A stretch of DNA of 64,000 nucleotides, taken from positions 62,001-126,000 of the forward strand of contig NZ_JAXIVS010000003.1 of assembly GCF_034259325.1 (NCBI RefSeq). Reading direction: 5' to 3'. The notes under the pieces are model-generated. The model ran no database searches, was not told the origin of the DNA, and saw only the letters and a program-made list of their open reading frames with translations. A program made the position numbers and the translations under genes. The DNA comes from Hyalangium ruber. GTDB lineage: Bacteria; Myxococcota; Myxococcia; Myxococcales; Myxococcaceae. Each line of letters starts with the position of its first letter. Position 1 is the stretch's first letter. Shown here in pieces: positions 1,921 through 19,088 of this stretch.

Positions 1921-1967
1921 AGAGGAACACATCAGCACGTTTGACCACTGAACCGCAGGAGGTGCCC

Positions 1968-3806
1968 ATGGGTGCGTCTATCGCAGACCTGGAAGCGCAG
2001 TGCCAAGCACGGGCGGACAAGCTCACGCTGCCGCTCCTCCTCAAACGCAATGCGGAGGAGTACGCGGGTGCTCCCGCTCTCAGCGCTGGCGACACGACGC
2101 TCACCTGGGCACAGGTACGCGAGCGGACCGCCGCGCTCTCTCGTGGGCTCGGCACCCTCGGGCTGAAGAGAGGCGAGCGGATGCTGATCATGATGTCCAG
2201 TCGGCCCGAGCACTGGATCATCGATTACGCCGCGGTCCATCTCGCCGCCATCCCCTGCACCGCCTACCAGACACTGAGCACCGAGCAGGTGGGCTACGTC
2301 GCGAAGCACAGCGGAGCCACGGTGGTGGTGCTGGAGGGCGCGGACGAGGTCGCACGGTGGCGGCCGGTGCTCGAAACGCTCACGGCCCTCAAGCGGATCA
2401 TCGTCATCAATGGGTCGGCCGTCCCGGCTGGCGATGCGCGCTTCGTCTCCTTCGCGGAGCTCGAGGCCGAGGGGAGCAGGCTTCACCAGGAGGATCCCCG
2501 GGTCTTCGAAGAGAGCTGGAAGAGCATCCGGCCCGAAGACCCGATCGCGATGATGTACACCTCGGGGACCACCGGCGAGCCCAAGGGCGTGGTGCTGAGC
2601 CATCGCAATGCCTTCTACGAGGCGATCTCGGTGGATCTCTGCATCCCCACGCCGATGCAGGCCCCCTCGATTGCCTATCTCCCGCTGGCGCACATCGCCG
2701 AGCGCGAGCTCGGCCTCTACCGCGCGGCCTACAAAGCACTGCATGTGCATATCTGCGCGGATCCGGCGGGCGTAGTGCCGCTGCTGGCCAAGGTGCGGCC
2801 TCCCGCGTTCTTCGGCGTCCCTCGCGTCTGGGAGAAGCTCGCCGGAGGCCTGCGGGCGAAGCTGGGCACGCTCGAGCCTCCCCAGCGCGAGGCCATCATG
2901 GCGGCCCACGCGGTGGCCCTGGAGGCCTTCCGGATCGAAGGCTCTGGAAGAGCGGTACCTCCAGAGCTCGCCCAGAAGGTCAAAGAGGCGGATGCCAAGG
3001 TCCTCCAGCCCCTGCGCCGAACGCTCGGGCTGGACGCGCTCGATTGGGCGAGCAGCGGCGCGGCGCCAATCCCCGTCGAGGTGCTCGAGTACCTCGGTGG
3101 CTTCGGGATCAGGGTGCTGGAGGTCTGGGGAATGAGTGAGACCACGGGGTGCGCCACCCTCAGCACGCCCGGGGACTTTCGCGTCGGCGGCGTAGGCCGG
3201 CCCATCCCGGGGCTGCAGGTCCGGCTGGCCGAGGACGGGGAGATCTTCGTCCGCGGCCCCGTGGTGTTCCTCGGCTACCTCGACGCGAGCGGTGAGATCA
3301 TCCGGGCGACCGACGCGGACGGCTGGCTCGCCACGGGCGACATCGGCACGCTCGACTCCGATGGATTCCTCACCATCACCGATCGCAAGAAGGAGCTCCT
3401 CATCACCTCGAGCGGAAAGAACATCGCTCCTTCCAAGATCGAGAACATGCTGCGCGCGCACCCCCTCATCGGTCAGGCGATCGCGATTGGGGATGGCTGG
3501 CCTTATGTGACGGCACTCATCTGCCTCGACGCGGACGCAGCACCGGTCTGGGCCAAGGCGTTCGGCCTCGCACCGCGGTCGATCAATGAGCTTGCTCGCG
3601 ATCCGGCGATTCAGGCGGAGCTCCTCTCGCTCGTTGCCTCGGTCAACACCCGGCTCTCCCGAGCGGAGCAGATCAAACGCTTCGAAGTGGTCACCGAGAC
3701 CTGGTCTCCCATGACGGGCGAGCTCACCCCCACCCTCAAGCTCAAGCGCCGCGTCCTCCTCAAGCAGTACGCCGAGCGCATCGCCACGCTCTACGTGGAC
3801 GCCTGA
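1968..3806 (+). CDS. Long-chain fatty acid--CoA ligase (AMP-dependent synthetase)
   Basis: 612 aa. I start at ATG 1968 because it has a good Shine-Dalgarno (CAGGAGG) and the ANL-family N terminus begins there; the frame is open further upstream but is non-coding there. The AMP-binding P-loop Y-T-S-G-T-T-G-E-P-K-G lies at about residues 197-207. It is followed by 'LPLAHIAER', typical of long-chain enzymes, 'WGMSETTG', and the hinge region 'TGDIG...TDRKKELLITSSGKNIAP'. It activates a fatty acid to acyl-AMP and then acyl-CoA in the cytoplasm. In this operon it would feed the following dehydrogenases and FadB/FadA-type enzymes. Confidence 0.93.
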   Translation: MGASIADLEAQCQARADKLTLPLLLKRNAEEYAGAPALSAGDTTLTWAQVRERTAALSRGLGTLGLKRGERMLIMMSSRPEHWIIDYAAVHLAAIPCTAYQTLSTEQVGYVAKHSGATVVVLEGADEVARWRPVLETLTALKRIIVINGSAVPAGDARFVSFAELEAEGSRLHQEDPRVFEESWKSIRPEDPIAMMYTSGTTGEPKGVVLSHRNAFYEAISVDLCIPTPMQAPSIAYLPLAHIAERELGLYRAAYKALHVHICADPAGVVPLLAKVRPPAFFGVPRVWEKLAGGLRAKLGTLEPPQREAIMAAHAVALEAFRIEGSGRAVPPELAQKVKEADAKVLQPLRRTLGLDALDWASSGAAPIPVEVLEYLGGFGIRVLEVWGMSETTGCATLSTPGDFRVGGVGRPIPGLQVRLAEDGEIFVRGPVVFLGYLDASGEIIRATDADGWLATGDIGTLDSDGFLTITDRKKELLITSSGKNIAPSKIENMLRAHPLIGQAIAIGDGWPYVTALICLDADAAPVWAKAFGLAPRSINELARDPAIQAELLSLVASVNTRLSRAEQIKRFEVVTETWSPMTGELTPTLKLKRRVLLKQYAERIATLYVDA

Positions 3807-3841
3807 CTCCTCACGCACCGGATCCACACCAAGGCCCCCTC

Positions 3842-4981
3842 ATGTACGCGAGAACACCGGAGCACGCCTCGTTCGCTGACGCCATCGACGCGTTCTGCCG
3901 CGCCAAGACAGGGACGCGAGCACAGCGCGACGCCCTCACCCAGAACGGCACCGAGGCCCACAGCCCCGCGATCTACGCGCAGATGGCGGAGCTGGGTTGG
4001 CTCGGGGCGGGCATCTCGCCAGACCATGGCGGCTCGGGTGGTGGCATGACCGACGTCTGTCTCTTCGCCGAGCGGACCGCGTACGGACTTGCCCCGGTAG
4101 GGGGCTACATCACCACCGCGGTCGCCGCCGGCCCGTATGCGAAGTTCGGGACCGAGGCCCAGAAAGAGAAAATCCTCGGTGGTATCGCCCGTGGCCGCGT
4201 GGAGGCGATCGCGATCTCCGAGCCTGGGGCGGGCTCGGACGTCGCCGCACTCACCTGCCGCGCGGTCCGGGTCTCGGGCGGCTTCATCATCAACGGGCAG
4301 AAGACCTGGTGCTCGAACGCCCACCTCGCGGACCACATCCTGCTCGTGGCAAGAACCGACCCCTCGGGCTCGCGGCACGAGGGCCTCACCATGTTCTGCG
4401 TCCCCACGGGTACACCGGGGATGGAGATTCGCGGCATCCCCACCCTGGGTGGCAAGGAAGTCAACGACGTCTTCTTCACCGACTGCTTCCTGCCCGAGAG
4501 CGCCGTGGTCGGTACCGTGGACCAGGCCTGGAAACAGCTCATGGCGGGGCTCAACAGCGAGCGGCTCATCCTCGCCGCGTCCATGCTCGGTCGCGGCCGG
4601 CGCGCGTTCGATGACGCCGTCGCGTATGTGAAGGAGCGCAAGCAGTTCGGCCGGCCTGTCGGCTCCTTCCAGGCGCTCAAGCACCGGATCGCGGACCTTG
4701 CCACCGAGCTCGATTGCTGTGAGCTGCTCGTCTACCGGGTGGCCGCGATGGCGGATGAAGCCCCTGAGCGGATGCTTCCCCGCGAGGCCTCGATGGCCAA
4801 GCTGAAGACGACCGAGACGGCCAAGCGCGTGGCCATCGAGGGCATGCAGATGATGGGGGGCTACGGTTACGCCACCGAGTACGACATGGAGTCGCATCTG
4901 CGCGCGACGGTGATCTCCACCGTCTTTGGCGGCACGAGCGAGATCCAGCGCGACATCATCGGCAAGACGTTCGGGCTCTAG
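3842..4981 (+). CDS. Acyl-CoA dehydrogenase, IVD/LCAD-type
   Basis: 379 aa FAD enzyme catalysing the first oxidation of beta-oxidation. Middle-domain flavin motifs 'ISEPGAGSDVAAL' and 'GQKTWCSNA' and the C-terminal 'MQMMGGYGY...VFGGTSEIQRD' are visible. The position of the MCAD catalytic Glu (E in YEGT) is a glycine here, but a Glu occurs in 'NSERL' (E240), the site used by isovaleryl- and long-chain acyl-CoA dehydrogenases. That suggests a branched or long substrate (inference). It sits 35 nt after the ligase and 29 nt before a second dehydrogenase in the same operon. Confidence 0.92.
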   Translation: MYARTPEHASFADAIDAFCRAKTGTRAQRDALTQNGTEAHSPAIYAQMAELGWLGAGISPDHGGSGGGMTDVCLFAERTAYGLAPVGGYITTAVAAGPYAKFGTEAQKEKILGGIARGRVEAIAISEPGAGSDVAALTCRAVRVSGGFIINGQKTWCSNAHLADHILLVARTDPSGSRHEGLTMFCVPTGTPGMEIRGIPTLGGKEVNDVFFTDCFLPESAVVGTVDQAWKQLMAGLNSERLILAASMLGRGRRAFDDAVAYVKERKQFGRPVGSFQALKHRIADLATELDCCELLVYRVAAMADEAPERMLPREASMAKLKTTETAKRVAIEGMQMMGGYGYATEYDMESHLRATVISTVFGGTSEIQRDIIGKTFGL

Positions 4982-5010
4982 ACGAAGACCATGAGCGGAG
5001 AGAGACAGAC

Positions 5011-6159
5011 ATGACGGCACGTTCCCGATGGAGCTCGGATGAGCTCGAGCAGGTGCGCGGGCTTGCGGCCACCTACTTCACGAAAGAGGTCCTCCCCAAC
5101 GTGCCCAAGCACGTGGCCCAGGGCTATCCGGACAAGGCGCTCTACCGGCGAGCGGGCGAGCTGGGCCTGCTCTGCATGTCCATTCCGGAGGCCTACGGCG
5201 GCGGCGGCGGCACGTTCGCGCACGAGACGGTCCTGCTCGAGGAGCAGATCCGCGCGGGCGATCCCTCGATGGGTTTCGCGGTGCATTGCACCATCGTCGC
5301 GCACTACCTGCTCGCCTATGCGTCCGAGGCCCAGAAGAAGAAGTGGCTGCCCAAGCTCGCCAGCGGCGAGTGGGTGGGCGCCATTGCCATGACCGAGCCG
5401 GGGACCGGCTCGGATCTCCAGGCCATCTCCACCCGCGCGGTACGCGACGGCGACTTCTATCGGGTGAGCGGCTCGAAGACGTTCATCTCCAACGGCCACG
5501 TCTGCGACTTCCTCATCATCGCCGCGCGAACAGGGGACGCGAAGGGTCACGCCGGGATTTCGCTCCTGTGCGCCGAGGTCTCCGACACGACGCCCGGCTT
5601 CCAGCGGGGCCGGATCCTCGACAAGCTAGGCGGCAAGGGCCAGGACACGACCGAGCTCTTCTTCGATGACCTGAAGATCCCCGCCGTCAACCTGCTCGGA
5701 GGCGAGGAGGGCAACGGGTTCGTGCAGCTGATGCAGCAGCTCCCCCAGGAGCGGCTGAGCACGGCGATCCTCGCCATGGCGAGCCTCGATCGCGCCGTGG
5801 AGGTGACGATCGAGTACACCAAGCAGCGTCACGTCTTCGGCAAGCCGCTCTTCGCCTTGCAGAACACGCGCTTCGAGCTGGCGGAGTGTGCGACCCTGAG
5901 GCGTGTCTGCCGCACCTTCATCGATGACTGCATCGCATCCCACCTCGAGGGCAAGCTCGACGTGACCACGGCGGCCATGGCCAAGTACTGGGTGACGGAC
6001 CAGTCCTGCATCGTCGCCGACCGCTGCCTGCAATTGTTCGGCGGGTACGGGTACATGAAGGAGTATCCCATCGCCCACCTGTTCGCCGATACCCGCGTCT
6101 TGCGGATTCTTGCCGGTGCGAACGAGATCATGAAAGAGCTCGTCGCCCGTTCCCTGTAG
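5011..6159 (+). CDS. Acyl-CoA dehydrogenase, LCAD-like
   Basis: 382 aa second acyl-CoA dehydrogenase, not a near-copy of the preceding one. It shows '[13 protein letters not shown]', 'GSKTFISNG', 'LPQERL', '[11 protein letters not shown]' and an end of '[15 protein letters not shown]', closely matching the long-chain enzyme pattern. E247 in 'LPQERL' is at the LCAD/IVD catalytic base position, while the MCAD-type Glu position is Ala. The start has a purine-rich GGAGAGAG leader. Two dissimilar dehydrogenases in one operon suggest stepwise oxidation of a chain whose shape changes, for example with methyl branches (inference). Confidence 0.92.
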
Positions 6160-6190
6160 CCCCATTCAACCGTTCCCAAGGAGGCTCCCA

Positions 6191-7402
<1,212 letters not shown>

Positions 7403-7442
7403 TCCCCTCCCCTTTCCCTTCCGACAAGATTCGAGCAACCCC

Positions 7443-9620
7443 ATGAGTGAGCAGAACACCATCCGCTGGGAACGAGACGCCGACGGCATCGTGGTCTTGA
7501 CGCTGGATGACCCGAGCCAGTCCGCCAACACCATGAACGCCGCGTACCTGAAGTCCATGCGCGCGACCGTGGACCGCCTCGTCAAGGAGAAGGCCGACAT
7601 CACGGGCGTGATCATCACCTCGGCGAAGAAGACGTTCTTCGCGGGCGGTGACCTGAATGATCTGCGCAACGTGAAGAAGGAAGAGGCCAGGCAGACCTTC
7701 GAGCTTGGGCAGGAGATCAAGGCGCAGCTGCGCGCGCTGGAGACCCTCGGCAAGCCCGTCGTCGCGGCGATCAACGGCGCGGCACTTGGAGGCGGGCTCG
7801 AGATCGCGCTCGCGTGTCACCACCGCATCGTCGCCGACGTCAAGGGCGCGCAGATCGGACTGCCGGAGGTAACGCTCGGGCTGCTGCCCGGCGGCGGCGG
7901 CGTGGTGCGCACGGTGCGCATGCTCGGCATCGTGGATGCGCTGATGAAGGTCCTGCTCCAGGGCCAGCGCTATCGTCCCCAGGAGGCCAAGGAGGTCGGC
8001 CTCGTCCACGAGGTGGTGGGCTCGGTGGATGCGCTCCTGCCCGCCGCCAAGGCCTGGGTGAAGGCGAATCCGGCCGCACAGCAGCCGTGGGATCAGAAGG
8101 GCTACAAGATCCCCGGGGGTACGCCCTCCTCTCCGGCTCTCGCGGCGAACCTGCCCGCCTTCCCCGCCAACCTGCGCAAGCAGCTCAAGGGGGCGAACAT
8201 GCCCGCGCCGCGCGCCATCATGGCCGTGGCCGTCGAGAGCACGCAGGTGGACGTCGAGACCGCGTTCACCATCGAGTCACGCTACTTCACCGAGCTGGCC
8301 ACCGGGCAGGTCGCGAAGAACATGATTCAGGCGTTCTTCTTCGACATGCAGCACATCAACTCGGGCGGCGGCCGTCCCAAGGGCTTCCCGCAGCACACGG
8401 CGAAGAAGGTCGGCATCCTCGGCGCCGGCATGATGGGCGCCGGCATCGCCTATGTGTGCGCCAAGGCCGGCATCGACGTGGTACTCAAGGACGTGAGCCT
8501 CGCCTCCGCCGAGAAGGGCAAGCAGTACTCGGTCAAGCTGGTGGAGAAGGATGTCCAGAGGGGCAAATCCACGAAGGAGAAGGGCGAGGCGCTCCTGGCG
8601 CGCATCCACCCCACCACGGACGCCGCTGCGCTCTCGGGCTGTGATCTGGTCATCGAAGCGGTCTTCGAGGACGTGAAGCTCAAGCACCAGGTCTTCCAGG
8701 AGATTCAAGAGCACGTCGCTCCGGACGCGGTGCTTGCCTCCAACACCTCGACCCTGCCGATCACCCTGCTCGCGGAGGGCGTGAAGCGGCCGGCCGACTT
8801 CGTCGGGATGCACTTCTTCTCCCCCGTGGACAAGATGCCGCTGCTCGAGCTCATCGCGGGCAAGAAGACGAGCGACGCCACGCTCGCGAAGGCGATCGAC
8901 ATCGCCGTCCAGATTGGAAAGACGCCCATCGTCGTCAACGACAGCCGGGGCTTCTTCACCAGCCGGGTGATCGGCACGTTCCTCAATGAGGCCGTTGCCA
9001 TGGTGGGCGAAGGCATCGCCCCCGCGTCGATCGAGCAGGCGGGCCTCCAGGCGGGCTACCCCGCCGCTCCGCTCCAGTTGATGGACGAACTCACGCTGAC
9101 CCTGCCGCGGAAGATCCGGCTCGAGACGAAGGCCGCCGCCGAGGCCGCTGGCCAGCCCTGGATGGACCACGGCAGCTACGGGGTCATGGACGCGATGATC
9201 GACCTGTACCAGCGCAAGGGTCGCTCCACGGGGGGCGGCTTCTATGACTATGCGGATGGCAAGCGCACGAACCTCTGGCCAGGGCTGGCTCAGCACTTCA
9301 CCAAGCCCGGCCACACCATCCCTTTCGAGGACATGAAGGAGCGGATGCTGTTCGCCGAGGCCATCGACACGGTGCGGTGCTTCGATGAAGGCGTCCTCCG
9401 CTCCGCGGCGGATGCGAACGTGGGCTCCATCCTCGGGATTGGCTTCCCGCCGTGGACGGGCGGCGTCGTGCAGTTCATCAACGGCTACGAAGGGCGTACC
9501 GGCACGGGGCCGCGCGGCTTCGTCACCCGCGCGCGCGAGCTCGCCGAGCGCTACGGCAAGCACTTCCTGCCTCCCGCCTCTCTCGTCGCGAAGGCCGAGC
9601 GCGGAGAGCTCCTGAAGTAG
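7443..9620 (+). CDS. Multifunctional enoyl-CoA hydratase / 3-hydroxyacyl-CoA dehydrogenase (FadB/FadJ-like)
   Basis: 725 aa. ATG 7443 is chosen because the crotonase domain begins immediately (IRWERDADGIVVLTLDDP). The N-terminal crotonase domain (about 1-190) has 'NGAALGGGLEIALACH' and 'LPEVTLGLLPGGGG'. The NAD-binding 3-hydroxyacyl-CoA dehydrogenase domain begins near residue 322 with G-A-G-M-M-G-A-G at 327, then 'SNTSTLPI', 'GMHFFSPVDKMPLLE' and the C-terminal dehydrogenase domains. It performs hydration and NAD-dependent oxidation, passing 3-ketoacyl-CoA to the thiolase encoded just upstream. Confidence 0.95.
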   Translation: MSEQNTIRWERDADGIVVLTLDDPSQSANTMNAAYLKSMRATVDRLVKEKADITGVIITSAKKTFFAGGDLNDLRNVKKEEARQTFELGQEIKAQLRALETLGKPVVAAINGAALGGGLEIALACHHRIVADVKGAQIGLPEVTLGLLPGGGGVVRTVRMLGIVDALMKVLLQGQRYRPQEAKEVGLVHEVVGSVDALLPAAKAWVKANPAAQQPWDQKGYKIPGGTPSSPALAANLPAFPANLRKQLKGANMPAPRAIMAVAVESTQVDVETAFTIESRYFTELATGQVAKNMIQAFFFDMQHINSGGGRPKGFPQHTAKKVGILGAGMMGAGIAYVCAKAGIDVVLKDVSLASAEKGKQYSVKLVEKDVQRGKSTKEKGEALLARIHPTTDAAALSGCDLVIEAVFEDVKLKHQVFQEIQEHVAPDAVLASNTSTLPITLLAEGVKRPADFVGMHFFSPVDKMPLLELIAGKKTSDATLAKAIDIAVQIGKTPIVVNDSRGFFTSRVIGTFLNEAVAMVGEGIAPASIEQAGLQAGYPAAPLQLMDELTLTLPRKIRLETKAAAEAAGQPWMDHGSYGVMDAMIDLYQRKGRSTGGGFYDYADGKRTNLWPGLAQHFTKPGHTIPFEDMKERMLFAEAIDTVRCFDEGVLRSAADANVGSILGIGFPPWTGGVVQFINGYEGRTGTGPRGFVTRARELAERYGKHFLPPASLVAKAERGELLK

Positions 9621-9646
9621 CACCCGCCCACGAAAGGGGTCGTTCC

Positions 9647-11053
9647 ATGGCTCTGAACTCCAGCCGACTTGCCGCCGCTGCGCCTTCGCTCGACGCGAGT
9701 ACACTCGTCGAGAGACAGCGTGCCTACTTCGAGACCCGTGCCACGCTCCCACTCGAGTGGCGGCGGGCGCAGCTTCAGGCGCTCGACCGGGCGGCGCGCA
9801 AGTATGAGGCCGAGATCCTCGCCGCCCTCAAGTCGGACCTCTCGAAGAGTCCAGAGGAGGCCTTCTTCACCGAGGTCGGGAGCATCTACGGCGAGATCAA
9901 GAGCGCGCTGAAGAACGTGAAGGCCTGGATGAAGCCACGGCGCGGCTCGGCGCCCCTCGTCATCCAGCCAGCGAGGGCCTATCAATACGCGGATCCCCTG
10001 GGCGTGACGCTCATCATCTCGCCCTGGAACTACCCCTATCAGCTGTCGATCGCGCCGCTCATCGGCGCGCTCGCGGCTGGCTGCACCGCCGTGCTGAAGC
10101 CCAGCGAACTCTCGCCGGCGACCTCGCGAGTGCTCGCGAGGATGCTGAGCGAGGCCTTCCCCCCGGAGATCGTCTCGGTGGCCGAGGGGGGCGTGGAGGT
10201 GAGCCGGGCGCTCCTCGCGGAGCGCTGGGATCTCATCTTCTTCACCGGAGGAACCCAGGTGGGCCGGGTGGTGGCCGAAGCCGCGGCAAAGCACCTCACG
10301 CCCACCATCCTCGAGCTGGGTGGAAAGAGCCCCTGCATCATCGACCGAAGCGCGGACCTCGAAGTCACCGCGCGCCGCATTGCCTGGGGCAAGTACGTCA
10401 ACGCGGGCCAGACCTGCATCGCGCCGGACTACGTGCTCATTCCCCCCGAGCTCAAGGGCCGCTTCATCGAGCTGGTCCAGCGAGCCGTCCAGAGCTTCTA
10501 CGGCGCCACGGCACGCGCGAGCGGCGACTACGGCCGGATCATCAGTGATCGACACTTCGAGCGCATCTCCGCGCTCGCGGCCGACGGCAAGATTGCCTTC
10601 GGAGGCGAGCGCGATGCACCCAGCCGCTACTTCGCCCCCACCGTCATCACGGATGCGCCCGTGTCGAGCCCGCTGATGCAGGAGGAGATCTTCGGTCCCC
10701 TGCTCCCCCTGGTCGACTGTCCGAGCATCGACGACGCCATCCGCTTCGTGCGCTCCCGCCCCAAGCCGCTCGCCCTCTACACCTTCGCGCGAGACTCCGC
10801 GGTGAACGAGCGCGTCCTCACCGAGACTTCGAGCGGCGGAGCGGTCACCAACGACGTGTGCGTCCACTTCGCCGCCGAGGGGCTCCCTTTTGGCGGCGTG
10901 GGGGAGTCGGGGCTCGGCGGCTACCACGGCCAGGCGAGCTTCGATGCCTTCAGCCACAAGAAGAGCGTGGTCAAACGCCCCTTCGCGCTCGACCTGAAGC
11001 TGCGCTACCCCCCTTACGAGGGCAAGCTCGAGTTCCTCAAGCGCTTCATGTGA
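9647..11053 (+). CDS. Aldehyde dehydrogenase, ALDH3 (fatty aldehyde) type
   Basis: 468 aa. ATG 9647 lies 26 nt after the preceding stop; the longer open frame upstream is non-coding. The catalytic Cys257 is in 'NAGQTCIAPDYVL' and Glu223 in 'LELGGKSPCIID'; 'SPWNYPYQL' is the cofactor region. The short length and the C-terminal 'SHKKSVVKRP...YPPYEGK' fit ALDH3/coniferyl-type enzymes that oxidise medium or long aldehydes. A fatty-aldehyde dehydrogenase at the end of a beta-oxidation operon and opposite a RoxA-like gene would suit oxidation of oligo-isoprenoid aldehydes released from rubber (inference). Confidence 0.93.
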   Translation: MALNSSRLAAAAPSLDASTLVERQRAYFETRATLPLEWRRAQLQALDRAARKYEAEILAALKSDLSKSPEEAFFTEVGSIYGEIKSALKNVKAWMKPRRGSAPLVIQPARAYQYADPLGVTLIISPWNYPYQLSIAPLIGALAAGCTAVLKPSELSPATSRVLARMLSEAFPPEIVSVAEGGVEVSRALLAERWDLIFFTGGTQVGRVVAEAAAKHLTPTILELGGKSPCIIDRSADLEVTARRIAWGKYVNAGQTCIAPDYVLIPPELKGRFIELVQRAVQSFYGATARASGDYGRIISDRHFERISALAADGKIAFGGERDAPSRYFAPTVITDAPVSSPLMQEEIFGPLLPLVDCPSIDDAIRFVRSRPKPLALYTFARDSAVNERVLTETSSGGAVTNDVCVHFAAEGLPFGGVGESGLGGYHGQASFDAFSHKKSVVKRPFALDLKLRYPPYEGKLEFLKRFM

Positions 11054-11086: not shown

Positions 11087-13108
11087 TCAGAGCGTCTTCA
11101 TATACTCGATGATGGCCCAGCGCTCGGCGTCCGTGAGCGACTGGGTGAAGTCATGCCCCTCGTTGCCCAGGCCATAGAGGTGCGAGTTGAAGATCATGCG
11201 CGAGCGGATCTGCTTCTCGGTGATGGGCGGCGGTGACTGGTAGGCGAGCGAGTTGTGGTTGGCGACGAGGTTGGCGATGTTCGCGAAGAGGACGTCGGGC
11301 GTCGCCATCTCCTGGCTGCAGGGGATGAACGGATCGTTGGCCGGCACATCGCCGCACGCCAGCGGCGTCACCTTCCAGCCGAGCTTGGCCCAGTCATAGG
11401 ACGCATAGCTCGAATCGTAGCCGGCGTTGTTGCCCCGGCTGTTGGCGGAGGTCTGCTGGCGCTTCCACACCGCCCGGCGGTCTGACGGCTTGAGCACCTC
11501 CCAGAGGGAGGGCACGCTGCCGTTGTGGAAGAAGGGCGCGGAGGCCCACGCGCCGTAGAGCGGCGGAGCGATGTAGCCAAACGGCTCGAGCCACGTGTTG
11601 GGCCCCTCGGGCGAGAAGATGGGCCCCGTGCCCCTGTCGTACGCGGCACGCGGCACGCGGCGCAGCGCGCTCATGATCGGGTCATCGTAGAAGGGGCCGT
11701 GGTTGGGGGCCTGGTCGTTGTAGGCGAGGAAGGAAGTGTTCCAGGCTCGGCGCTTGCGCTCGTCGGCCATCAACTGCGCGCGGGCAGGGTCCGTCCGGAT
11801 GGTCTCGATGGGGGTGATGACTCCGGCGATGCCCTTGAGGCGTGGGTCCGGAAGGTAGGCGGGGTTGGCGGCGTAGCGCGGCGAGTAGACACCATGGCAG
11901 CTCGCACAGGAGCCATTGCCCTGCTGCTTCGGGATGTTGGCATTGGCGCCGTTCGCCCAGAGATCTCGCTCGTGGTAGAGCACGGCCCCTTGCTCGGCCA
12001 GCGCGGTGTTGATCGCCTTGGGATAGGGCGGAGGAGAGAGCGAGAGGAAGAAGTTGTCATTGTCTTCGAACTCGACGGTCAGCGCGCGGCGCTGTGGGGG
12101 CGTGCGCGTGAGGTTGGCGACGCCAAAGGCCATCTCCGAGCGGACGTTGTCCGAGGTGAGCGCGCCATCCCAGAACTGGCGCGTCTTGAACGAGCGGTAC
12201 CACCAGTTGGGCGCGCGGGACATGCCGCCCGCGTGGGTTGGGAAGAACTCGAGCAGGCTCGGCACCATGGCCAGCGAGTCCATGTCGAAGAGCGCGGGGA
12301 GCAGATCGACGATGCCGATGGCGTCACTCGAGCCGCGGCCCACGCTCCAGGGCACGGGGGCGAGCAGCAGGGGCGTCTCCCACACCGTGGAGCGGAACAT
12401 GTCGGACTGGATCAGGCCCGCATCGCTCGCGTCGCTCGATCGGCCCCACACGAAGCCTGCTTCCTCTTCAGTCCCGAGCCGTGAGTCGTGACAGCCCGAG
12501 CAGGTCGAGCTGATCTGACCCGTGTAGCGGCCGTTCGCGTCCCGCTCTTGCACGAGCCCCAGCGGGAGCTGGCCGCTGCCTCCGTTGGTGAGGTTGGGGT
12601 TCTCCCAGGGCAGCGGGTAGGGGTTGCGGTATGGCGCCTTCGCAAGCCCATAGCGCTTGATGACCTGCTCGTCGAAGTCAGCAGGCCGTAGGGCGTAGCC
12701 CCAGAGCGTGTAGCTGTAATAGTAGGCGAGCGAGTTGCTGAACGGCTGGAAGTAGGTGCGCGTCTCGATGTTCGAGCGGCCCCGGGAAGCACTCGCGCGG
12801 AACTGGCCGCACGTCTGGGGATTCGGCGGCAGGTTCGAGACGAACGGCGCCGGCGGTGTGTGCAGATCCACCCAGTAGGCGTTGAACTGCAAGGCGGCAC
12901 CGGGAGTGTTGATGCCGGGCACCACCAGGGTGCGCGGATCCACCGGCAACGGCGTGGAGTCCGGCTTCCCATTGCAGGCCGCCGCGAAGGGCGACCGGAT
13001 GGCTGCGATGTCCAACAGCGGAAGGGGATCCGCAGCCGCCTGAGTCCCGCCCATGGCGAGGATCAGGGAACTGGAAGCCGCCCATCGACGAATCCAACTC
13101 AGGCTCAT
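11087..13108 (-). CDS. RoxA/RoxB-like rubber (polyisoprene) oxygenase, secreted di-heme cytochrome c
   Basis: 673 aa from ATG 13108; a GTG at 13114 is also possible, but AAAGGAGG is spaced properly only for the ATG. A signal peptide ends near 'GTQAAA'. Two c-type heme sites are visible, CSGCH (203-207) and CASCH (401-405), 198 residues apart. RoxA of strain 35Y is about the same size, with hemes at 191 and 390 (199 apart) and distal-pocket residues A251, F301, W302 and F317. The corresponding residues here are A263, F312, W313 and F328. RoxA cleaves cis-1,4-polyisoprene to a C15 oxo-aldehyde (ODTD) outside the cell. An ordinary CcpA/MauG peroxidase would be far shorter. Confidence 0.85.
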   Translation of the reverse strand: MSLSWIRRWAASSSLILAMGGTQAAADPLPLLDIAAIRSPFAAACNGKPDSTPLPVDPRTLVVPGINTPGAALQFNAYWVDLHTPPAPFVSNLPPNPQTCGQFRASASRGRSNIETRTYFQPFSNSLAYYYSYTLWGYALRPADFDEQVIKRYGLAKAPYRNPYPLPWENPNLTNGGSGQLPLGLVQERDANGRYTGQISSTCSGCHDSRLGTEEEAGFVWGRSSDASDAGLIQSDMFRSTVWETPLLLAPVPWSVGRGSSDAIGIVDLLPALFDMDSLAMVPSLLEFFPTHAGGMSRAPNWWYRSFKTRQFWDGALTSDNVRSEMAFGVANLTRTPPQRRALTVEFEDNDNFFLSLSPPPYPKAINTALAEQGAVLYHERDLWANGANANIPKQQGNGSCASCHGVYSPRYAANPAYLPDPRLKGIAGVITPIETIRTDPARAQLMADERKRRAWNTSFLAYNDQAPNHGPFYDDPIMSALRRVPRAAYDRGTGPIFSPEGPNTWLEPFGYIAPPLYGAWASAPFFHNGSVPSLWEVLKPSDRRAVWKRQQTSANSRGNNAGYDSSYASYDWAKLGWKVTPLACGDVPANDPFIPCSQEMATPDVLFANIANLVANHNSLAYQSPPPITEKQIRSRMIFNSHLYGLGNEGHDFTQSLTDAERWAIIEYMKTL

Positions 13109-13240: not shown

Positions 13241-13615
13241 TCACTCCTGGCGGCCCCTCAGTGCCTTGGGGCTGCTCTCCGCTGCCTTGGCGCGGGTGGT
13301 CGCCCACAGGTGGCTGAAGACCGCCGCCCGATCGGCCGCGCCCGGGTCGAAGCGCCCTGCCCGAATATCGGCAGCCAGGCGCCGCTCCAGGACGGGCAGC
13401 GCGCTGGCATCATCGCCATAGAGGGCGGAGAGCCGGCTCCGGGCGGCTTCGAGCGGCGCGTCCCCCGCGGCCGCCTGCCGCGCGGCGATGCCCATGGCAT
13501 TCAGCACCATCAGCGCCGAGTAGGTCAGCTCCTGAGGCAGGGCGGGGAGCAGCTTGTCGCTGAGCACCTCCTGGGCCGCCTCCAGCAGCTCGTGGGCGAT
13601 GGGCCTGTCACGCAT
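13241..13615 (-). CDS. DUF6285-like small protein (LvaB-like)
   Basis: 124 aa, helical, no signal peptide. The pattern 'RPIAHELLEAAQEVL..LLPALPQELTYSALMVLNAMGIAAR' resembles the DUF6285 proteins that accompany APH-like kinases. It overlaps the kinase gene by 8 nt. In Pseudomonas putida the small LvaB protein is needed with LvaA for phosphorylation of 4-hydroxyacyl-CoA; the same gene order and size suggest the same accessory role here (inference). There is no visible catalytic motif. Confidence 0.75.
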   Translation of the reverse strand: MRDRPIAHELLEAAQEVLSDKLLPALPQELTYSALMVLNAMGIAARQAAAGDAPLEAARSRLSALYGDDASALPVLERRLAADIRAGRFDPGAADRAAVFSHLWATTRAKAAESSPKALRGRQE

Positions 13616-14627
13616 GGTCGTGCTCCCGTGTCATCTCCAGGAGGTCCAGCTCCAGCGCCGGCAGGATGTGTGCTGTCAGCGCCAGCTCCAGGTTGCGCTC
13701 TCCGCCCGAGACATGACGCTCGGCCTGTTGCAGGGCGATGATCGCCCAGCGCAGGGTCGCCATGGCCTCCCAGTAAGGGACCCGGGCGCGGTCGATGGGG
13801 GTACCGCTCTGGCTCTCATAGCCCCGGTAGAAATCCTCACGCGCGCCAAGGCCGCCCGCCTCCCGCTCCAGGGCACCGAAGCGCCAGCAGGGCGCGCAGA
13901 ACCACCCGATGTCGGCCAGCGGGTCGCCCCACCCCGCGAACTCCCAGTCGAGGATGCCGCTCACGCCTTGCGCGTCGACCATGATGTTGCCGGTGCGAAA
14001 GTCATTGTGGCAGAGGGTCGGTCGGGGCATGTCCGCCGCGTGACGCTCCAGCCAGCGCAGCCCCCACTCGAGCGCGGGATGCGCCGCCTCATGCCGATCG
14101 AGCCAGCCACGAAACTCGGCGATCCAGCGACGCGCGGTGCTGTCCGGCGGCGAACCCAGGAAGGCCAGCTCCGCGCGCGGAGGACGGATGGAGTGGATGC
14201 GTGCCAGCTCCCGTCCCAGTCGCTCGGCCAGGTTCACCCGCCCTCCTCCGGCCGCCGCGTCCTTCACCAGCCGATGCCCCGCGGCGGTGCCATTCACGCG
14301 ACGCATGACGAAGAACGGCTTGCCGAGCACGACGCCGTCCGCGTCCTGCCACAGCGGCTCAGGCACCGTCACCCCGGCGGAGAAGGCAGCCTGGAACAGG
14401 GCGAACTCCTGGGGCCGCCCCAGGCTCACCGCTACCCCTGAGGGGGCGTCTGTGCGCACGACCAGCGCCTGGCGTCCCCCCCACCGGCCACCGGTAAAGG
14501 CCACCTCCAGGCCCCAGTTCTCCTGAATGGCGCCACCGGACAGCCTGGCGAGGGCGATGATCTCCGCCTCCTTGGCTTCGGCCTGGGCGGCGAGCCAGGC
14601 CGCCAGCGCCCCGCGCTGCGCCTCCAT
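13608..14627 (-). CDS. APH-like phosphotransferase, LvaA / ACAD10-11 kinase type
   Basis: 339 aa from ATG 14627, which overlaps the upstream stop by one base (TGATG). Kinase-fold motifs are H207-N-D-F-R-T-G-N214 (Brenner motif) and D227 of D-W-E. This family sits beside acyl-CoA dehydrogenases in bacteria and is fused to one in ACAD10/ACAD11. Known members phosphorylate the 4-hydroxyl of 4-hydroxyacyl-CoA so that phosphate can be eliminated. It is not expected to be an aminoglycoside resistance gene. It is translationally coupled on both sides, supporting a complex with the small DUF6285-like protein. Confidence 0.85.
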   Translation of the reverse strand: MEAQRGALAAWLAAQAEAKEAEIIALARLSGGAIQENWGLEVAFTGGRWGGRQALVVRTDAPSGVAVSLGRPQEFALFQAAFSAGVTVPEPLWQDADGVVLGKPFFVMRRVNGTAAGHRLVKDAAAGGGRVNLAERLGRELARIHSIRPPRAELAFLGSPPDSTARRWIAEFRGWLDRHEAAHPALEWGLRWLERHAADMPRPTLCHNDFRTGNIMVDAQGVSGILDWEFAGWGDPLADIGWFCAPCWRFGALEREAGGLGAREDFYRGYESQSGTPIDRARVPYWEAMATLRWAIIALQQAERHVSGGERNLELALTAHILPALELDLLEMTREHDHA

Positions 14628-15829
14628 CACACCCCCCAGCTCCAGAAGTCCTTGCCCTCTTTCTGCAGGCTGCGGAACAGGACCATCTTGTGTACCTCCG
14701 AGGCGCCGTCGACCAGCCGGGCCTGGCGGGCATAGCGGTACATCCACTCCAGCGGCGTGTCCTTGGAATAGCCACGGGCGCCGTTGAGCTGGATGGCGGT
14801 ATCGATGGCCTGATGGAGGGCGTCGGCGACGACGATCTTCGCCATGCTGACCTCTTTGCGGGCGAAATCGCCGGCCTCGAGCTTCCAGGCGGCCTTCATC
14901 GTCAGCAGGCGGCCCACCTCGATCTGGAGCGCGGCATCGCCCAATAGGGTCTGCACGCTCTCATGCTCGGACAGCGTATGCCCGAAGGCCTGACGGTCCC
15001 GCACATACTCCGCGCCAATCTCCAGGGCTCGCCGGGCCATGCCCAGCCAGCGCATGCAGTGGGTGAGACGGGCGGTGCCCAAGCGGATCTGGGTCGCCTT
15101 CAAGCCGTCGCCGACATTCATCAGGCGGTTGGCGTCGGGAATCTCGAGGCCTTCGTAGACCAGCTCGCAGTGACCGCCGTGCTCCTCCGGCCCCATGATG
15201 GGAATGCGCCGCTCGATGCGCCAGCCGGGGTCATCTCGGTGGTGGAGGAAGCAGGTCAGCCCCGTTCGCGGATCGTCGGAGGTACGCGCGACCAGGATGA
15301 AGTGGCTGGCCGCCGCCGCCCCCGTGATGAACCACTTGCGGCCGGTAATGACCCAGGTGTCGCCCTTCTTCTCCGCTCGGGTGAGCATCATGCCGGCCGG
15401 ATCGGAGCCAGAGCCGGGACGGGGCTCGGTCATGGCGAAGGAGCTGCGCACCGCGCCGTCGACGATGGGCTGCAGCCAGCGGGCCTTCTGCTCAGGGGTG
15501 CCCACCTTCTCCAGCAGCATCATGTTGCCGTCGTCAGGAGCGGCGGCGTTGAAGCAGACGGGGCCAAAGATGGAGCGGTTCATCTCCTCATAGAGGGCCG
15601 CCATCCCGACGACTCCAAGTCCCAAGCCTCCGCGAGACCTGGGCATCTGCGGCGCCCAGAGTCCCGCCTCCTTGACCCGGGCGCGGACCGCCTCCAGCGC
15701 CGCCTCGCTGATGTTCTCGTGGTCGTCCCGGGCGGTGGGATCGCTCTCCAACGGGAGGATGTGCGTCTCGACGAAGGCGCGCACCCGCGCGCGCAGGGCG
15801 TCGACCTCGGCGGTCAGGGCAAAGTCCAT
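14627..15829 (-). CDS. Acyl-CoA dehydrogenase, LvaC / ACAD10-11 type
   Basis: 400 aa. ATG 15829 is 10 nt after the preceding stop and has an AGGAG leader. Flavin motifs 'FAMTEPRPGSGSDPAGM' and 'GRKWFITGAA' are present. The C-terminal catalytic loop is 'VDGASEVHK', with Asp where MCAD has Glu, as in the ACAD10/ACAD11-like group. In the levulinate pathway LvaC removes phosphate from 4-phosphoacyl-CoA to give an enoyl-CoA. Its position between an SDR and the APH-like kinase matches that role. Confidence 0.9.
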   Translation of the reverse strand: MDFALTAEVDALRARVRAFVETHILPLESDPTARDDHENISEAALEAVRARVKEAGLWAPQMPRSRGGLGLGVVGMAALYEEMNRSIFGPVCFNAAAPDDGNMMLLEKVGTPEQKARWLQPIVDGAVRSSFAMTEPRPGSGSDPAGMMLTRAEKKGDTWVITGRKWFITGAAAASHFILVARTSDDPRTGLTCFLHHRDDPGWRIERRIPIMGPEEHGGHCELVYEGLEIPDANRLMNVGDGLKATQIRLGTARLTHCMRWLGMARRALEIGAEYVRDRQAFGHTLSEHESVQTLLGDAALQIEVGRLLTMKAAWKLEAGDFARKEVSMAKIVVADALHQAIDTAIQLNGARGYSKDTPLEWMYRYARQARLVDGASEVHKMVLFRSLQKEGKDFWSWGV

Positions 15830-15839
15830 ACGGGGCTCC

Positions 15840-16607
15840 TCAGAGGGAACTGCAAAGGTGGCCGCCATCCACCGCCAGGATCGAGCCGGTCATGTAAGCG
15901 GCGGAGTCCGAGCAGAGCAGCAGCAGTGGGCCGTCGAGATCGGCGAGCTGCCCAAGCCTGCGCTGGGGAATTCGCTGGATCAGCGCCTTGCCAGCCTCGG
16001 TCTGGAAGAAGTCGCGGTTGAGGTCGGTCTCGATATAGCCGGGGCACAGCGCGTTGACCCGGATGCGGTAGCGGGCCCACTCCAGGGCCAGCGCCTGGGT
16101 GAGCTGAACGAGGCCCGCCTTGGCCGCCGCATAGTGGGACAGCATTCCTGCGACACGCAGGCCCAGGATGGAGGCGACATTCACGATGGTGCCACCTCGC
16201 CCGGCCTCCTTCAGACGCCGCGCCGCTTGCTGGGCCACGGTGAAGCAGCCGGTCAGGTTGGTATCGAGAACGCGGGTCCACTCGTCGTGCGAGATGTCGA
16301 GCGCGGCGGTGGTGGCGCTAATCCCTGCGTTGTTGATGACCACGTCGAGGACTCCCACCTCGCGTGTCGCGGCATCGAACGCCGCCGTCACCGAGTCAGG
16401 GTCTCGCACGTCCATGGGCACCGAATGAGCACTCACCCCGCGAGCGCGCAGGTCTGCGACCGTCTCCTGCAGCAAGGAGTCGCGCCGGGCGGCCAGAACC
16501 ACGGTTGCGCCCGCGGCTCCCAGGGTCGCGGCGAAGTGCAGTCCCAGGCCGCTGGATGCCCCGGTTACCAGGACGTTCTTGCCGTGCAGCGAGCATGTCA
16601 GCGCCAT
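15840..16607 (-). CDS. Short-chain dehydrogenase/reductase, LvaD-like
   Basis: 255 aa classical SDR. It has T-G-A-S-S-G-L-G near residues 15-22, N-N-A-G at 92-95, and catalytic S146, Y159 and K163; it ends with 'MTGSILAVDGGHLCSSL'. In Pseudomonas LvaD reduces the 4-oxo group of levulinyl-CoA to 4-hydroxyvaleryl-CoA, and the first gene of this four-gene set would supply that step. It is the promoter-proximal gene of the operon, directly behind a palindromic operator and divergent from a TetR gene. Without the neighbours it would be called only a generic SDR. Confidence 0.88.
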   Translation of the reverse strand: MALTCSLHGKNVLVTGASSGLGLHFAATLGAAGATVVLAARRDSLLQETVADLRARGVSAHSVPMDVRDPDSVTAAFDAATREVGVLDVVINNAGISATTAALDISHDEWTRVLDTNLTGCFTVAQQAARRLKEAGRGGTIVNVASILGLRVAGMLSHYAAAKAGLVQLTQALALEWARYRIRVNALCPGYIETDLNRDFFQTEAGKALIQRIPQRRLGQLADLDGPLLLLCSDSAAYMTGSILAVDGGHLCSSL

Positions 16608-16635: not shown

Positions 16636-16649
16636 CGAACGATCGTTCG
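16636..16649. promoter_or_regulatory. TetR-type palindromic operator between SDR operon and TetR gene
   Basis: CGAACGATCGTTCG is a perfect 14-bp palindrome of the kind bound by TetR-family repressors. It lies in the 114-bp divergent spacer, just downstream of the likely -10 of the minus-strand operon. The adjacent divergent TetR gene (16,722) is the natural binder, giving control of the lva-like operon and probably itself. Confidence 0.7.
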
Positions 16650-16721: not shown

Positions 16722-17429
16722 ATGCCAGCACGCGCGCCTCCGCTCACTCAGGACGATGCCTTCGCCAGAGAACACGGGCTCACGCTGAAGGAGCTCTGCG
16801 AGCGCCTGTACCACCGGCATCGTGACCGCATGGAAGTGAAGAAGCCGCGCACGGCGGTGGCGAACCTGACCCGAGTGCTGACAGCGACGCTTCGCATGTC
16901 CGAGCGGCACAGCTTCCACGAGATGAGCATGCGCGACCTCAGCCGGGCCTCGGGACTGAGCATCGGCGCGCTCTACAGCTCCATCCGCGACAAGGACACC
17001 CTGCTGGAGATGGTGCTCGACGTGGTCTCCGATGCAGTGGATCGGGTGCTGGTCGCCGTGCCGGAGGCAGTGCGCGCCGACCCGCGCGTCCATCTGCGCT
17101 GGATCGTCAACCGGCACATCCAGCTCACCGAGGCGTTGCCCGCCTGGTTCAAGTTCGCCTACCTGGAGGCCAAGGCGTTCGGGCCCTCGGCGCGAAAGCG
17201 CGCCCGCCAGGAGGAACTGGCCACCGAGCGCCTGATCCGCGAAGCCCTGGATTCGGGTGTGCGCCAGGGCGTGTTCAAGCTCAAGGATCTCGAGATGACA
17301 GCCGCCCTGATCAAACCGCTGCTGCAGGAGTGGTACCTGAAGCGCTGGAAGTACCACCAGCGCGGCATCTCTCCCGAGGCCTATGCGGATGCGGTCATGA
17401 ACCTGCTGGAGGGCAGCGTGCTCGGCTGA
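16722..17429 (+). CDS. TetR family regulator, likely repressor of the divergent lva-like operon
   Basis: 235 aa. A helix-turn-helix is visible in 'MRDLSRASGLSIGALYSSIRDKDTLLEMV' (about residues 68-98), preceded by an unusually long N-terminal extension of about 45 residues that is helical and charged. The C-terminal helical domain is a ligand-binding type. Divergent placement with a perfect palindrome in the spacer argues for autoregulation and control of the SDR/ACAD/APH operon. The inducer is probably an acyl-CoA or keto acid of that pathway (inference). It converges with the DUF4334 gene. Confidence 0.88.
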   Translation: MPARAPPLTQDDAFAREHGLTLKELCERLYHRHRDRMEVKKPRTAVANLTRVLTATLRMSERHSFHEMSMRDLSRASGLSIGALYSSIRDKDTLLEMVLDVVSDAVDRVLVAVPEAVRADPRVHLRWIVNRHIQLTEALPAWFKFAYLEAKAFGPSARKRARQEELATERLIREALDSGVRQGVFKLKDLEMTAALIKPLLQEWYLKRWKYHQRGISPEAYADAVMNLLEGSVLG

Positions 17430-17466: not shown

Positions 17467-17970
17467 TCATGGACGCGCGGGCGGCGGGCCCAGCACGAAG
17501 GGGGCACTGGCTCGCTCGAGCACGAAGTAGAAGTGGCGGCCCTCGTGGAGCACGTTCTTGCCGTTCATGATGCCCATCAGCGTGCGGTCATCGATCTTCT
17601 TGAAGTGATCGAAGGTCGCCGTGCCGTCGTAGACCATCGTCGCGGTGGACTCGCCACGGAACGCGACCATCCACGCGCTCGCTTCGCCTTTGCCGAGCTC
17701 GAGGTTGGAGAAGAGCGAGCCGTCGGGCGCGCGACACACGAGCGGCTGCACGTCCAGCGGCCCGCCGAAGCGCTTGCCGACCCAGCGCACCTTCCCGAGC
17801 AGCTTCGACAGCGGATGCCCCGTCGCGAGCTCCGCGCCCTCCCAGCTTCCCCAGAGGTCGTCGAGCGACGCAGGTTCAAGCGCCTCCCAAAGCGCATCGA
17901 GTTCCGCGGGGTCGATGGTGCTGCGGGCGCGGAACTCGGCGAGGCGGTTACGGGCGGAAGCGGCAGTCAT
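17467..17970 (-). CDS. GXWXG/DUF4334 domain protein
   Basis: 167 aa cytoplasmic protein. An N-terminal GXWXG segment ('LWGSWEGAELATGHPL', about 39-54) is followed by the DUF4334-type C-terminal half with 'DHFKKIDDRTLMGIMNGK'. The function of this two-part family is not established; lipocalin-like ligand binding is only a suggestion. Its ATG overlaps the alcohol dehydrogenase stop by 4 nt, so the two are co-translated. Confidence 0.8.
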   Translation of the reverse strand: MTAASARNRLAEFRARSTIDPAELDALWEALEPASLDDLWGSWEGAELATGHPLSKLLGKVRWVGKRFGGPLDVQPLVCRAPDGSLFSNLELGKGEASAWMVAFRGESTATMVYDGTATFDHFKKIDDRTLMGIMNGKNVLHEGRHFYFVLERASAPFVLGPPPARP

Positions 17971-19088
17971 TCGATTCCTCCGAAGGTCAGGACGGGTTTG
18001 ACGACCGACCCGTCGCGCATCTTGGCGAGCGCTTCATCGAGCCGGTCAAAGGGAAAGGTCTGGATCACGCGCTCCAAGGGGAGCTGCCCGGCACGCCACA
18101 TGCGCACGAGCTCGGGGATGAACGTATGCGGATCGGCGTCGCCCTCGATGACGCCGACCAGCGTCCGCCCGTAGAGCAGGTGCGTCTGGCTGATCGACAC
18201 CGGGTTGGCGCCGCCGCGGAGCGCGAGCGTGGCGCACACTCCAGGCGCCCCGAGCGCATTCAGCGCCTGGGTGATCACCGCCTGGGTCCCCACCGTATCG
18301 ACACAGAAGTCGAGCGTACCGCCAAGCACCTTCCGAAGCCCCGAGCTGCGCTCACCGACCTCGTCCGGGGCCAGCGCGTGGGTGGCTCCCAGCTCGAGCG
18401 CGAGTTGGCGCCGCGAGGGCAGCGGGTCGATTACCACGATGGGCGAGCAGCGCGCCGCGACGGCGGCCATGAGCGCACCAGCGCCCACCGCACCCGCACC
18501 GAAGATCGCGATGCCCTGACCGGGCGAGGGCTTCAGCGCTCGCAGCACGGTCCCGGCGCCGGTCTGGATTCCACAGCCCAGCGGTGCGAGCAGCGCGAGC
18601 TCATTCGAGCGAGGCACGCGGACCGCGTTGCGCTCGCTAGCCAGCGCAATCGACGCGAGGGACGACTGCCCGAACCAGCCTCCATGGACCGGCCCGGTGG
18701 CGTCGCGCAGTGTCGTTGTCCCGTCGGAGCGCGCGCAGGCGTAGTTGAGCGCGCGCGCGTGAGTACAGTACCCCGGCAGTCCTCGTTGGCAGGCTCGGCA
18801 GGCCCGGCAGGCATCGAAGCTGAGCACCACGTGATCGCCAACCTCGAGCGAAGTCACCGCGGAGCCGCGTTCGATCACCACCCCCGCGCCCTCGTGCCCG
18901 AGCACCACGGGCAGAGGCACCGGGACGACGCCCTCCATCACCGAGAGGTCTGTATGGCAGATGCCGGCGCCCACCATCCGCACGAGGAGTTCGTCGGGAC
19001 GAAGCTCATTGCAGACGATCTCGGTGCGCTGCAGCGCACCTCCAACCTCACGAAGAACGGCCGCGGTTCCCGTCCGGCTTCGGGTCAC
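17967..19088 (-). CDS. Zinc-dependent alcohol dehydrogenase, XylB/geraniol-dehydrogenase-like
   Basis: 373 aa medium-chain dehydrogenase. Catalytic zinc ligands are C44 and H65-E66. The structural zinc lobe is complete, with C94, C97, C100 and C108. The nucleotide turn is G-A-G-A-V-G-A-G. The spacing and the 'LGCGIQTGAG' segment fit class III/aryl-alcohol-type enzymes that oxidise benzylic or allylic alcohols, including monoterpenols. Because of the neighbouring RoxA-like and lva-like genes, an isoprenoid alcohol substrate is attractive but unproven. It forms a two-gene unit with the DUF4334 gene. Confidence 0.9.
   Translation of the reverse strand: MTRSRTGTAAVLREVGGALQRTEIVCNELRPDELLVRMVGAGICHTDLSVMEGVVPVPLPVVLGHEGAGVVIERGSAVTSLEVGDHVVLSFDACRACRACQRGLPGYCTHARALNYACARSDGTTTLRDATGPVHGGWFGQSSLASIALASERNAVRVPRSNELALLAPLGCGIQTGAGTVLRALKPSPGQGIAIFGAGAVGAGALMAAVAARCSPIVVIDPLPSRRQLALELGATHALAPDEVGERSSGLRKVLGGTLDFCVDTVGTQAVITQALNALGAPGVCATLALRGGANPVSISQTHLLYGRTLVGVIEGDADPHTFIPELVRMWRAGQLPLERVIQTFPFDRLDEALAKMRDGSVVKPVLTFGGIE

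Follow-up and report, generated by a model that had tools for sequence, protein, structure and literature searches.

The lvaDCAB-like operon and its enzymes

The 64,000-nucleotide stretch of Hyalangium ruber DNA analysed here (the window; contig NZ_JAXIVS010000003.1, positions 62,001 to 126,000) carries on its minus strand, at 13241-16607, a tight operon of four genes resembling lvaD, lvaC, lvaA and lvaB of levulinate catabolism, and beside it roxA, the gene of a secreted rubber oxygenase. All four genes, encoding a short-chain dehydrogenase/reductase (SDR), an acyl-CoA dehydrogenase (ACAD), an APH-fold kinase and a DUF6285 protein, are present in the order claimed by a first-pass annotation, as confirmed by the open reading frames and Pfam. 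The reference for the identities given below was the seven-gene lva operon on the Pseudomonas plasmid NZ_MF344569.1, which serves as a proxy for the P. putida KT2440 type.

15840..16607, minus strand: lvaD-like SDR (PF13561/PF00106; 53% identity to plasmid LvaD), proposed levulinyl-CoA 4-ketoreductase
14627..15829, minus strand: lvaC-like ACAD (44% to plasmid LvaC; hidden Markov model score 780 bits), proposed 4-phosphovaleryl-CoA phosphate-lyase
13608..14627, minus strand: lvaA-like APH-fold kinase (PF01636; 52% to plasmid LvaA), proposed 4-hydroxyvaleryl-CoA kinase
13241..13615, minus strand: lvaB-like DUF6285 protein (PF19802; 47% to annotated LvaB), proposed kinase subunit
11087..13108, minus strand: roxA, secreted dihaem rubber oxygenase (NF050033, PDB 4b2n, CXXCH motifs)

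The lvaD gene lies 10 bp upstream of lvaC (ATG at 15829), the lvaC stop and the lvaA ATG overlap in the sequence TGATG, and lvaB starts inside lvaA with an overlap of 8 bp. The SDR contains the active-site pattern S...Y-A-A-A-K, and the lvaC-like protein has the three Acyl-CoA_dh Pfam domains; the Pfam matches of all four proteins lie well over the cut-off. The kinase matches the APH family PF01636 at 130 bits and carries HxD (CHNDFRTGN) and DWE motifs. The lvaB-like protein matches PF19802 at 75 bits and is encoded by the only DUF6285 gene in the 10.8-Mb genome. No lvaE, lvaF, lvaG (transporter) or LvaR gene adjoins lvaDCAB, and the regulator here is TetR-type.

The plasmid operon comprises an LvaR-like regulator, lvaA, lvaB, lvaC and lvaD, followed by lvaE-G (acyl-CoA synthetase, DUF485 protein and symporter), and its LvaB is annotated as '4-hydroxypentanoyl-CoA kinase subunit'. 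The identities of 44-53% to Pseudomonas LvaA-D hold near full length and support the lvaDCAB-like assignment made in the first-pass annotation. Three markers have been described as restricted to LvaC and ACAD10/11: the catalytic Asp, the motif HCMR and, eight residues ahead of its His, an Arg proposed to hold the phosphate (PMC12440821). The lvaC-like ACAD has all three markers (RLGTARLTHCMR, with HCMR and the Arg at -8, and the catalytic Asp in RLVDGASEVH); the previously noted Asp in the catalytic loop, as in ACAD10/11, is thus borne out (LVDGASEVH) and joined by the other two. The plus-strand operon nearby encodes two ordinary ACADs, neither of which has any of the three. Among solved structures, the closest relatives of the lvaC-like ACAD are ACAD11, its best characterised match, and 4hr3, a deposition labelled putative acyl-CoA dehydrogenase.

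The match between the window kinase and the ACAD11 kinase domain is weak, which places the kinase nearer to LvaA than to ACAD11. A closer kinship to non-Lva kinases or dehydrogenases, named beforehand as the outcome that would speak against an Lva assignment, was not found. The NCBIfam models include none naming LvaA, LvaB or LvaC, and known LvaA and LvaB also give no match at the limit used, so that the missing family name is no evidence. Taken together, these sequence comparisons strongly support the assignment of the four gene products to the Lva enzyme families.

RoxA, its island and the linked Lva-type genes

The roxA gene is the next gene 3' of lvaB on the same strand, separated by a gap of 126-132 bp depending on whether it starts at ATG 13108 or GTG 13114, and is the only RoxA gene in the genome. 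Its product scores 1279.8 bits against the RoxA profile NF050033 of NCBIfam (cut-off 1000), and 610 and 515 bits against the RoxC and RoxB profiles, both under their cut-offs. It matches PDB 4b2n with an E-value of 1.1e-296; in the alignment, Phe and Trp are conserved at the active-site positions Phe317 and Trp302. Two CXXCH haem motifs (CSGCH and CASCH) and a hydrophobic signal-like stretch at the N-terminus are also present. The product of RoxA is the C15 keto-aldehyde 12-oxo-4,8-dimethyltrideca-4,8-diene-1-al (ODTD; PMC5979037, PMC6311187). RoxA from Corallococcus, Myxococcus and Haliangium cleaves polyisoprene to ODTD, with some of the tested myxobacterial enzymes ~10% as active as that of 35Y (PMC10837239, PMC6311187). 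By analogy, the window RoxA is expected to yield ODTD from polyisoprene.

On the other side of roxA, positions 1-11053 are occupied by a plus-strand operon.

1..416, plus strand: enoyl-CoA hydratase gene, 3' end (the gene starts upstream of the window, L061:17574)
413..1081, plus strand: TetR1, regulator within the operon (PF00440/PF21943), conserved in roxA islands
1078..1920, plus strand: SDR1 (PF00106), 89-93% in roxA islands
1968..3806, plus strand: long-chain acyl-CoA ligase, FadD11-like (NF038343 at 494.9 bits, under cut-off), island orthologues at 74-85%
3842..4981, plus strand: ACAD1, ordinary acyl-CoA dehydrogenase (acyl-CoA dehydrogenase models)
5011..6159, plus strand: ACAD2, ordinary acyl-CoA dehydrogenase (acyl-CoA dehydrogenase models), orthologues at 87-94% in Myxococcaceae islands
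6191..7402, plus strand: thiolase (NF006090 at 704.9 bits, cut-off 514), orthologues by roxA at 88-93%
7440..9620, plus strand: FadB/FadJ-like hydratase/3-hydroxyacyl-CoA dehydrogenase (PF02737, PF00378, PF00725), orthologues by roxA at 88-92%
9632..11053, plus strand: aldehyde dehydrogenase (PF00171 at 283 bits), candidate for oxidation of the ODTD aldehyde, orthologues by roxA at 82-88%

This operon is found at high identity by roxA in Corallococcus, Hyalangium, Myxococcus and Archangium, and its conservation by roxA covers five genera of Myxococcaceae in all. Orthologues of ACAD1 are 88-89% identical in the RoxA-positive genomes tested; none was found in 18 RoxA-negative relatives, where the best match was 41%. 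The first-pass annotation had described an acyl-chain degradation operon that supplies a ligase, a hydratase and a thiolase to the Lva enzymes. The operon and its degradative character hold, but the label is incomplete, since the operon travels with roxA and the RoxA context was missed; the ligase would thus probably activate the rubber-derived C15 acid, not levulinate.

The occurrence of RoxA and DUF6285 was surveyed in 195 Myxococcota genomes, counting RoxA over its cut-off and DUF6285 matches of >=70 bits. RoxA is present in 33 genomes and DUF6285 in 16, all 16 of which are RoxA-positive. In Corallococcus, eight of the 16 genomes are RoxA-positive and these are exactly the DUF6285 carriers, the remaining eight having neither. 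The association within genera (stratified) has p ~3e-7, a value calculated across kin genomes that are non-independent. DUF6285 matches of <70 bits in other Myxococcota, mostly in RoxA-negative genomes, were set aside as other lineages.

An LvaC/ACAD11-type dehydrogenase and a kinase are encoded ~0.1-13 kb from roxA in five separately placed lineages. The lvaDCAB genes of Corallococcus lie at the far end of the island and point away from its hydratase gene in a divergent arrangement; their products are 57-58% (LvaD), 69% (LvaC), 59-60% (LvaA) and 44-46% (LvaB) identical to those of the window. In Archangium, which does not have DUF6285, genes for a histidine phosphatase, an HCMR/Asp ACAD, an APH kinase and an SDR lie between roxA and the operon. 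An ACAD11-type dehydrogenase, a kinase and an SDR are encoded at most ~13 kb from roxA in the gammaproteobacterium Microbulbifer, and in five Nannocystis genomes dehydrogenase and kinase genes, within ~13 kb of roxA, are flanked by the roxA gene group on one side and the thiolase-FadB genes on the other. A maximum-likelihood tree was built from 40 LvaC-type enzymes; its well-supported branches require the RoxA-linked members to be placed separately at least five times.

Several further observations were made at these loci. The Archangium arrangement of histidine phosphatase, ACAD11-type, kinase and SDR genes (L070:5219-8989, L077 and L079) amounts to a natural swap for lvaDCAB. A few kb from its roxA, Nannocystis has a second gene for a RoxA-like dihaem protein, which is only distantly related (26-27%; L092 6662-7423, L098 5775-6536 and L127 16699-17460). 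In Nannocystis pusilla (G199:C2:6926216-6928236; L098, L166), roxA and a nearby HCMR-type ACAD gene are each read in two frames, as a result of either sequencing errors or decay. The record BNCN01000005.1 (L091), titled Comamonas sp. KCTC 72670, bears a Myxococcaceae roxA island and looks mislabelled (Myxococcus group).

A proposed route for the methyl-ketone ends of cleaved rubber

From this context we infer, with a probability of about 0.8, that lvaDCAB has the physiological role of a methyl-ketone end-group module in a rubber catabolic island. Secreted RoxA would cut the polymer exo-wise to ODTD, which the aldehyde dehydrogenase and acyl-CoA ligase would convert to the C15 keto-acyl-CoA. 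Four rounds of beta-oxidation by the plus-strand operon would then release acetyl-, propionyl-, acetyl- and propionyl-CoA in turn, C1-C2 leaving as acetyl-CoA, C3-C4 with its methyl group as propionyl-CoA, C5-C6 as acetyl-CoA and C7-C8 with its methyl group as propionyl-CoA. The methyl-branched intermediates would also require an alpha-methylacyl-CoA racemase, a family represented by a single gene elsewhere in the genome. The remainder, C9-C13, would be 4-oxopentanoyl-CoA (levulinyl-CoA), which would not be processed by beta-oxidation in the usual way. LvaD would reduce it to 4-hydroxyvaleryl-CoA, LvaA with LvaB would phosphorylate the 4-hydroxyl at the expense of ATP, and LvaC would eliminate the phosphate to give pentenoyl-CoA. 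Addition of water would yield 3-hydroxyvaleryl-CoA, to be cleaved to propionyl- and acetyl-CoA.

Reckoned from established chemistry, the 15 carbons of ODTD would divide as 2+3+2+3+5, so that five of the 15 would require a pathway able to handle a 4-keto-acyl-CoA, and levulinyl-CoA derived from ODTD would be the natural Lva substrate. The lack of a levulinate ligase or transporter gene (no lvaE) with lvaDCAB fits this scheme, because the substrate would arrive as a CoA ester. More broadly, it is reasonably probable that the 4-hydroxyacyl-CoA kinase/phosphate-lyase route (Lva; ACAD10/11 in animals) is the general solution for the methyl-ketone ends that rubber cleavage leaves, and that RoxA loci acquired it at least five times, drawing on different enzyme lineages, with one third of the carbon of RoxA-cleaved rubber passing through levulinyl-CoA and a phosphorylated intermediate.

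A number of observations weigh against a dedicated role in rubber catabolism. Lva/ACAD11-type genes lie away from roxA in RoxA-positive Hyalangium, Minicystis, Parahaliea and one gammaproteobacterial metagenome-assembled genome. Among RoxA-positive Myxococcus genomes, five have lva genes distant from roxA, 12 others have no dedicated lva set and one (L069) has no aldehyde dehydrogenase gene by roxA. The Nannocystis cluster has no LvaB gene, nor did it yield a clear LvaD. The probability of chance linkage in five of ten lineages, ~1e-7 (assuming ~2 such ACADs per genome), is optimistic and overstates specificity, because catabolic genes cluster in general. Further, a core ACAD10/11-type copy is present in all Myxococcaceae genomes tested, including RoxA-negative ones; kinase and SDR genes adjoin it in both loci examined (G000:C16:23091-24296, L168, and the equivalent L169), and L169 also has a histidine phosphatase. 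This copy may serve any 4-hydroxy fatty acid, the rubber need included, in which case lva genes near roxA are perhaps not essential, and its presence in RoxA-negative genomes means that the activity is not confined to rubber.

We consider it unlikely that lvaDCAB is a free-standing operon for levulinate or for 4-hydroxy/4-oxo-acids in general, placed beside roxA by an accident of gene transfer and unrelated to rubber. Such an origin would agree with the closely similar lvaDCAB clusters on an alphaproteobacterial plasmid (LvaC 82%, LvaA 65%) that has no RoxA match and with the distance between roxA and the same lvaDCAB in other Hyalangium. A search of plasmids in general gave no RoxA. An accidental placement is harder to reconcile with the restriction of lva-type DUF6285 to RoxA-positive genomes in the Myxococcota survey, with a different lva lineage at the opposite end of the Corallococcus island and with ACAD11-type modules at the roxA loci of Archangium, Nannocystis and Microbulbifer; the operon also has no lvaE, lvaF, lvaG or LvaR neighbours, unlike that of Pseudomonas.

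The substrate itself could be another 4-hydroxy- or 4-oxoacyl-CoA of isoprenoid breakdown, such as a longer keto-acid or a hydrated 4-methyl-4-enoyl-CoA. Sequence does not reveal substrate specificity, and ACAD10/11-type enzymes accept 4-hydroxyacyl-CoAs of several chain lengths (PMC12440821, PMC11342911). However, the ketone reaches C4 only when five carbons remain, the window set has its nearest counterpart in the short-chain (C5) LvaA-D type, and the SDR partner that a 4-ketone requires is encoded in the window as well as in Corallococcus, Archangium and Microbulbifer. These points make a substrate other than levulinyl-CoA distinctly improbable. Any C(CH3)=CH unit would give a methyl ketone on oxidative cleavage, and we know of no natural soil substrate of myxobacterial RoxA; the island could therefore degrade gutta-percha-like or membrane polyprenols or carotenoids, with lva handling their methyl-ketone ends. 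Against this stands the cleavage of polyisoprene to ODTD by the Corallococcus, Myxococcus and Haliangium enzymes, even if some act at ~10% of the 35Y level, and we regard a target other than rubber as very improbable.

In the papers covered by the search, rubber catabolism after cleavage is given as beta-oxidation to acetyl- and propionyl-CoA, with the ketone end unaccounted for. No paper in the open PubMed Central literature mentions rubber, RoxA and the term levulin- jointly, or latex clearing protein along with levulin-; subscription papers lie outside this coverage, so that novelty is likely, not certain. The enzymes are of known kinds, and what is likely to be new is their place within a rubber island as its probable end-group module, for which different lineages have been drawn on more than once. 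If the end-group role is correct, one third of the carbon released by RoxA goes via levulinyl-CoA, and names can be put to the missing enzymes. Levulinyl-CoA, a substrate hitherto tied mainly to biomass chemistry, would gain a natural source, and the scheme would offer a genome marker for complete rubber degraders. The scheme also suggests lva-blocked strains for the production of levulinic acid or 4-hydroxyvalerate from waste rubber.

Regulator, adjoining genes and comparison with known systems

The remaining features lie upstream of lvaD.

16636..16649, no strand: perfect 14-bp palindrome CGAACGATCGTTCG between lvaD and tetR2, candidate operator
16722..17429, plus strand: TetR-family regulator (tetR2; PF00440/PF17932), divergent from lvaD
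17467..17970, minus strand: GXWXG/DUF4334 protein (PF14231/PF14232), recurrent RoxA neighbour
17967..19088, minus strand: zinc alcohol dehydrogenase (PF08240/PF00107; nearest NCBIfam model TIGR03989, under cut-off), paired with the GXWXG gene

The tetR2 gene travels with lvaDCAB in two other Hyalangium loci (L066 and L074), and the palindrome, which in the window lies directly 3' of a promoter-like element, is also found upstream of lvaD in both, in one with a single mismatch. The genome has no further perfect copy. A one-mismatch second copy lies beside an unrelated TetR gene and an alpha/beta-hydrolase gene, and a wider regulon is therefore not claimed; the palindrome is a candidate operator through which the divergent TetR may exert local control. 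The pair of zinc alcohol dehydrogenase and GXWXG/DUF4334 genes recurs beside roxA or in its vicinity in Nannocystis, Minicystis, Microbulbifer and Parahaliea (L092, L093, L094, L098, L100, L101, L102 and L103). A role of the GXWXG/DUF4334 protein in handling the ODTD aldehyde is an open guess.

The window shares with Steroidobacter cummioxidans 35Y a RoxA orthologue, the same expected ODTD product and a beta-oxidation stage (PMC5979037). The pathway published for that organism is a generic beta-oxidation to acetyl- and propionyl-CoA, and in the text searched no enzyme or fate is stated for the methyl-ketone end.

The Pseudomonas lva operon (P. putida KT2440 type) unites the genes of orthologous LvaA, LvaB, LvaC and LvaD, and the marker residues are shared, but the gene order is A-B-C-D instead of D-C-A-B. 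It also has the lvaE ligase, lvaF, the lvaG transporter and a sigma54-type LvaR, where the window has a TetR regulator and a rubber oxygenase. P. putida can do without LvaE (PMC6692424), and lvaE-G and LvaR are features of the Pseudomonas operon, not of the A-D enzyme set. Mammalian ACAD10 and ACAD11 likewise combine an APH-type kinase with a phosphate-eliminating ACAD that carries HCMR, the Arg and the Asp; they are fused in a single polypeptide, without LvaB, and act on a wider chain length of 4-hydroxy fatty acids, whereas the window genes are separate. The levulinate cluster of P. citronellolis LA18 consists of lvaA, a histidine phosphatase gene, lvaC and lvaD, without lvaB (PMC6692424). 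The reactions proposed for this cluster are the same as those proposed for the window set, and its gene content equals that of the set at the Archangium roxA locus. The window differs from it in having LvaB (DUF6285) and no adjoining histidine phosphatase.

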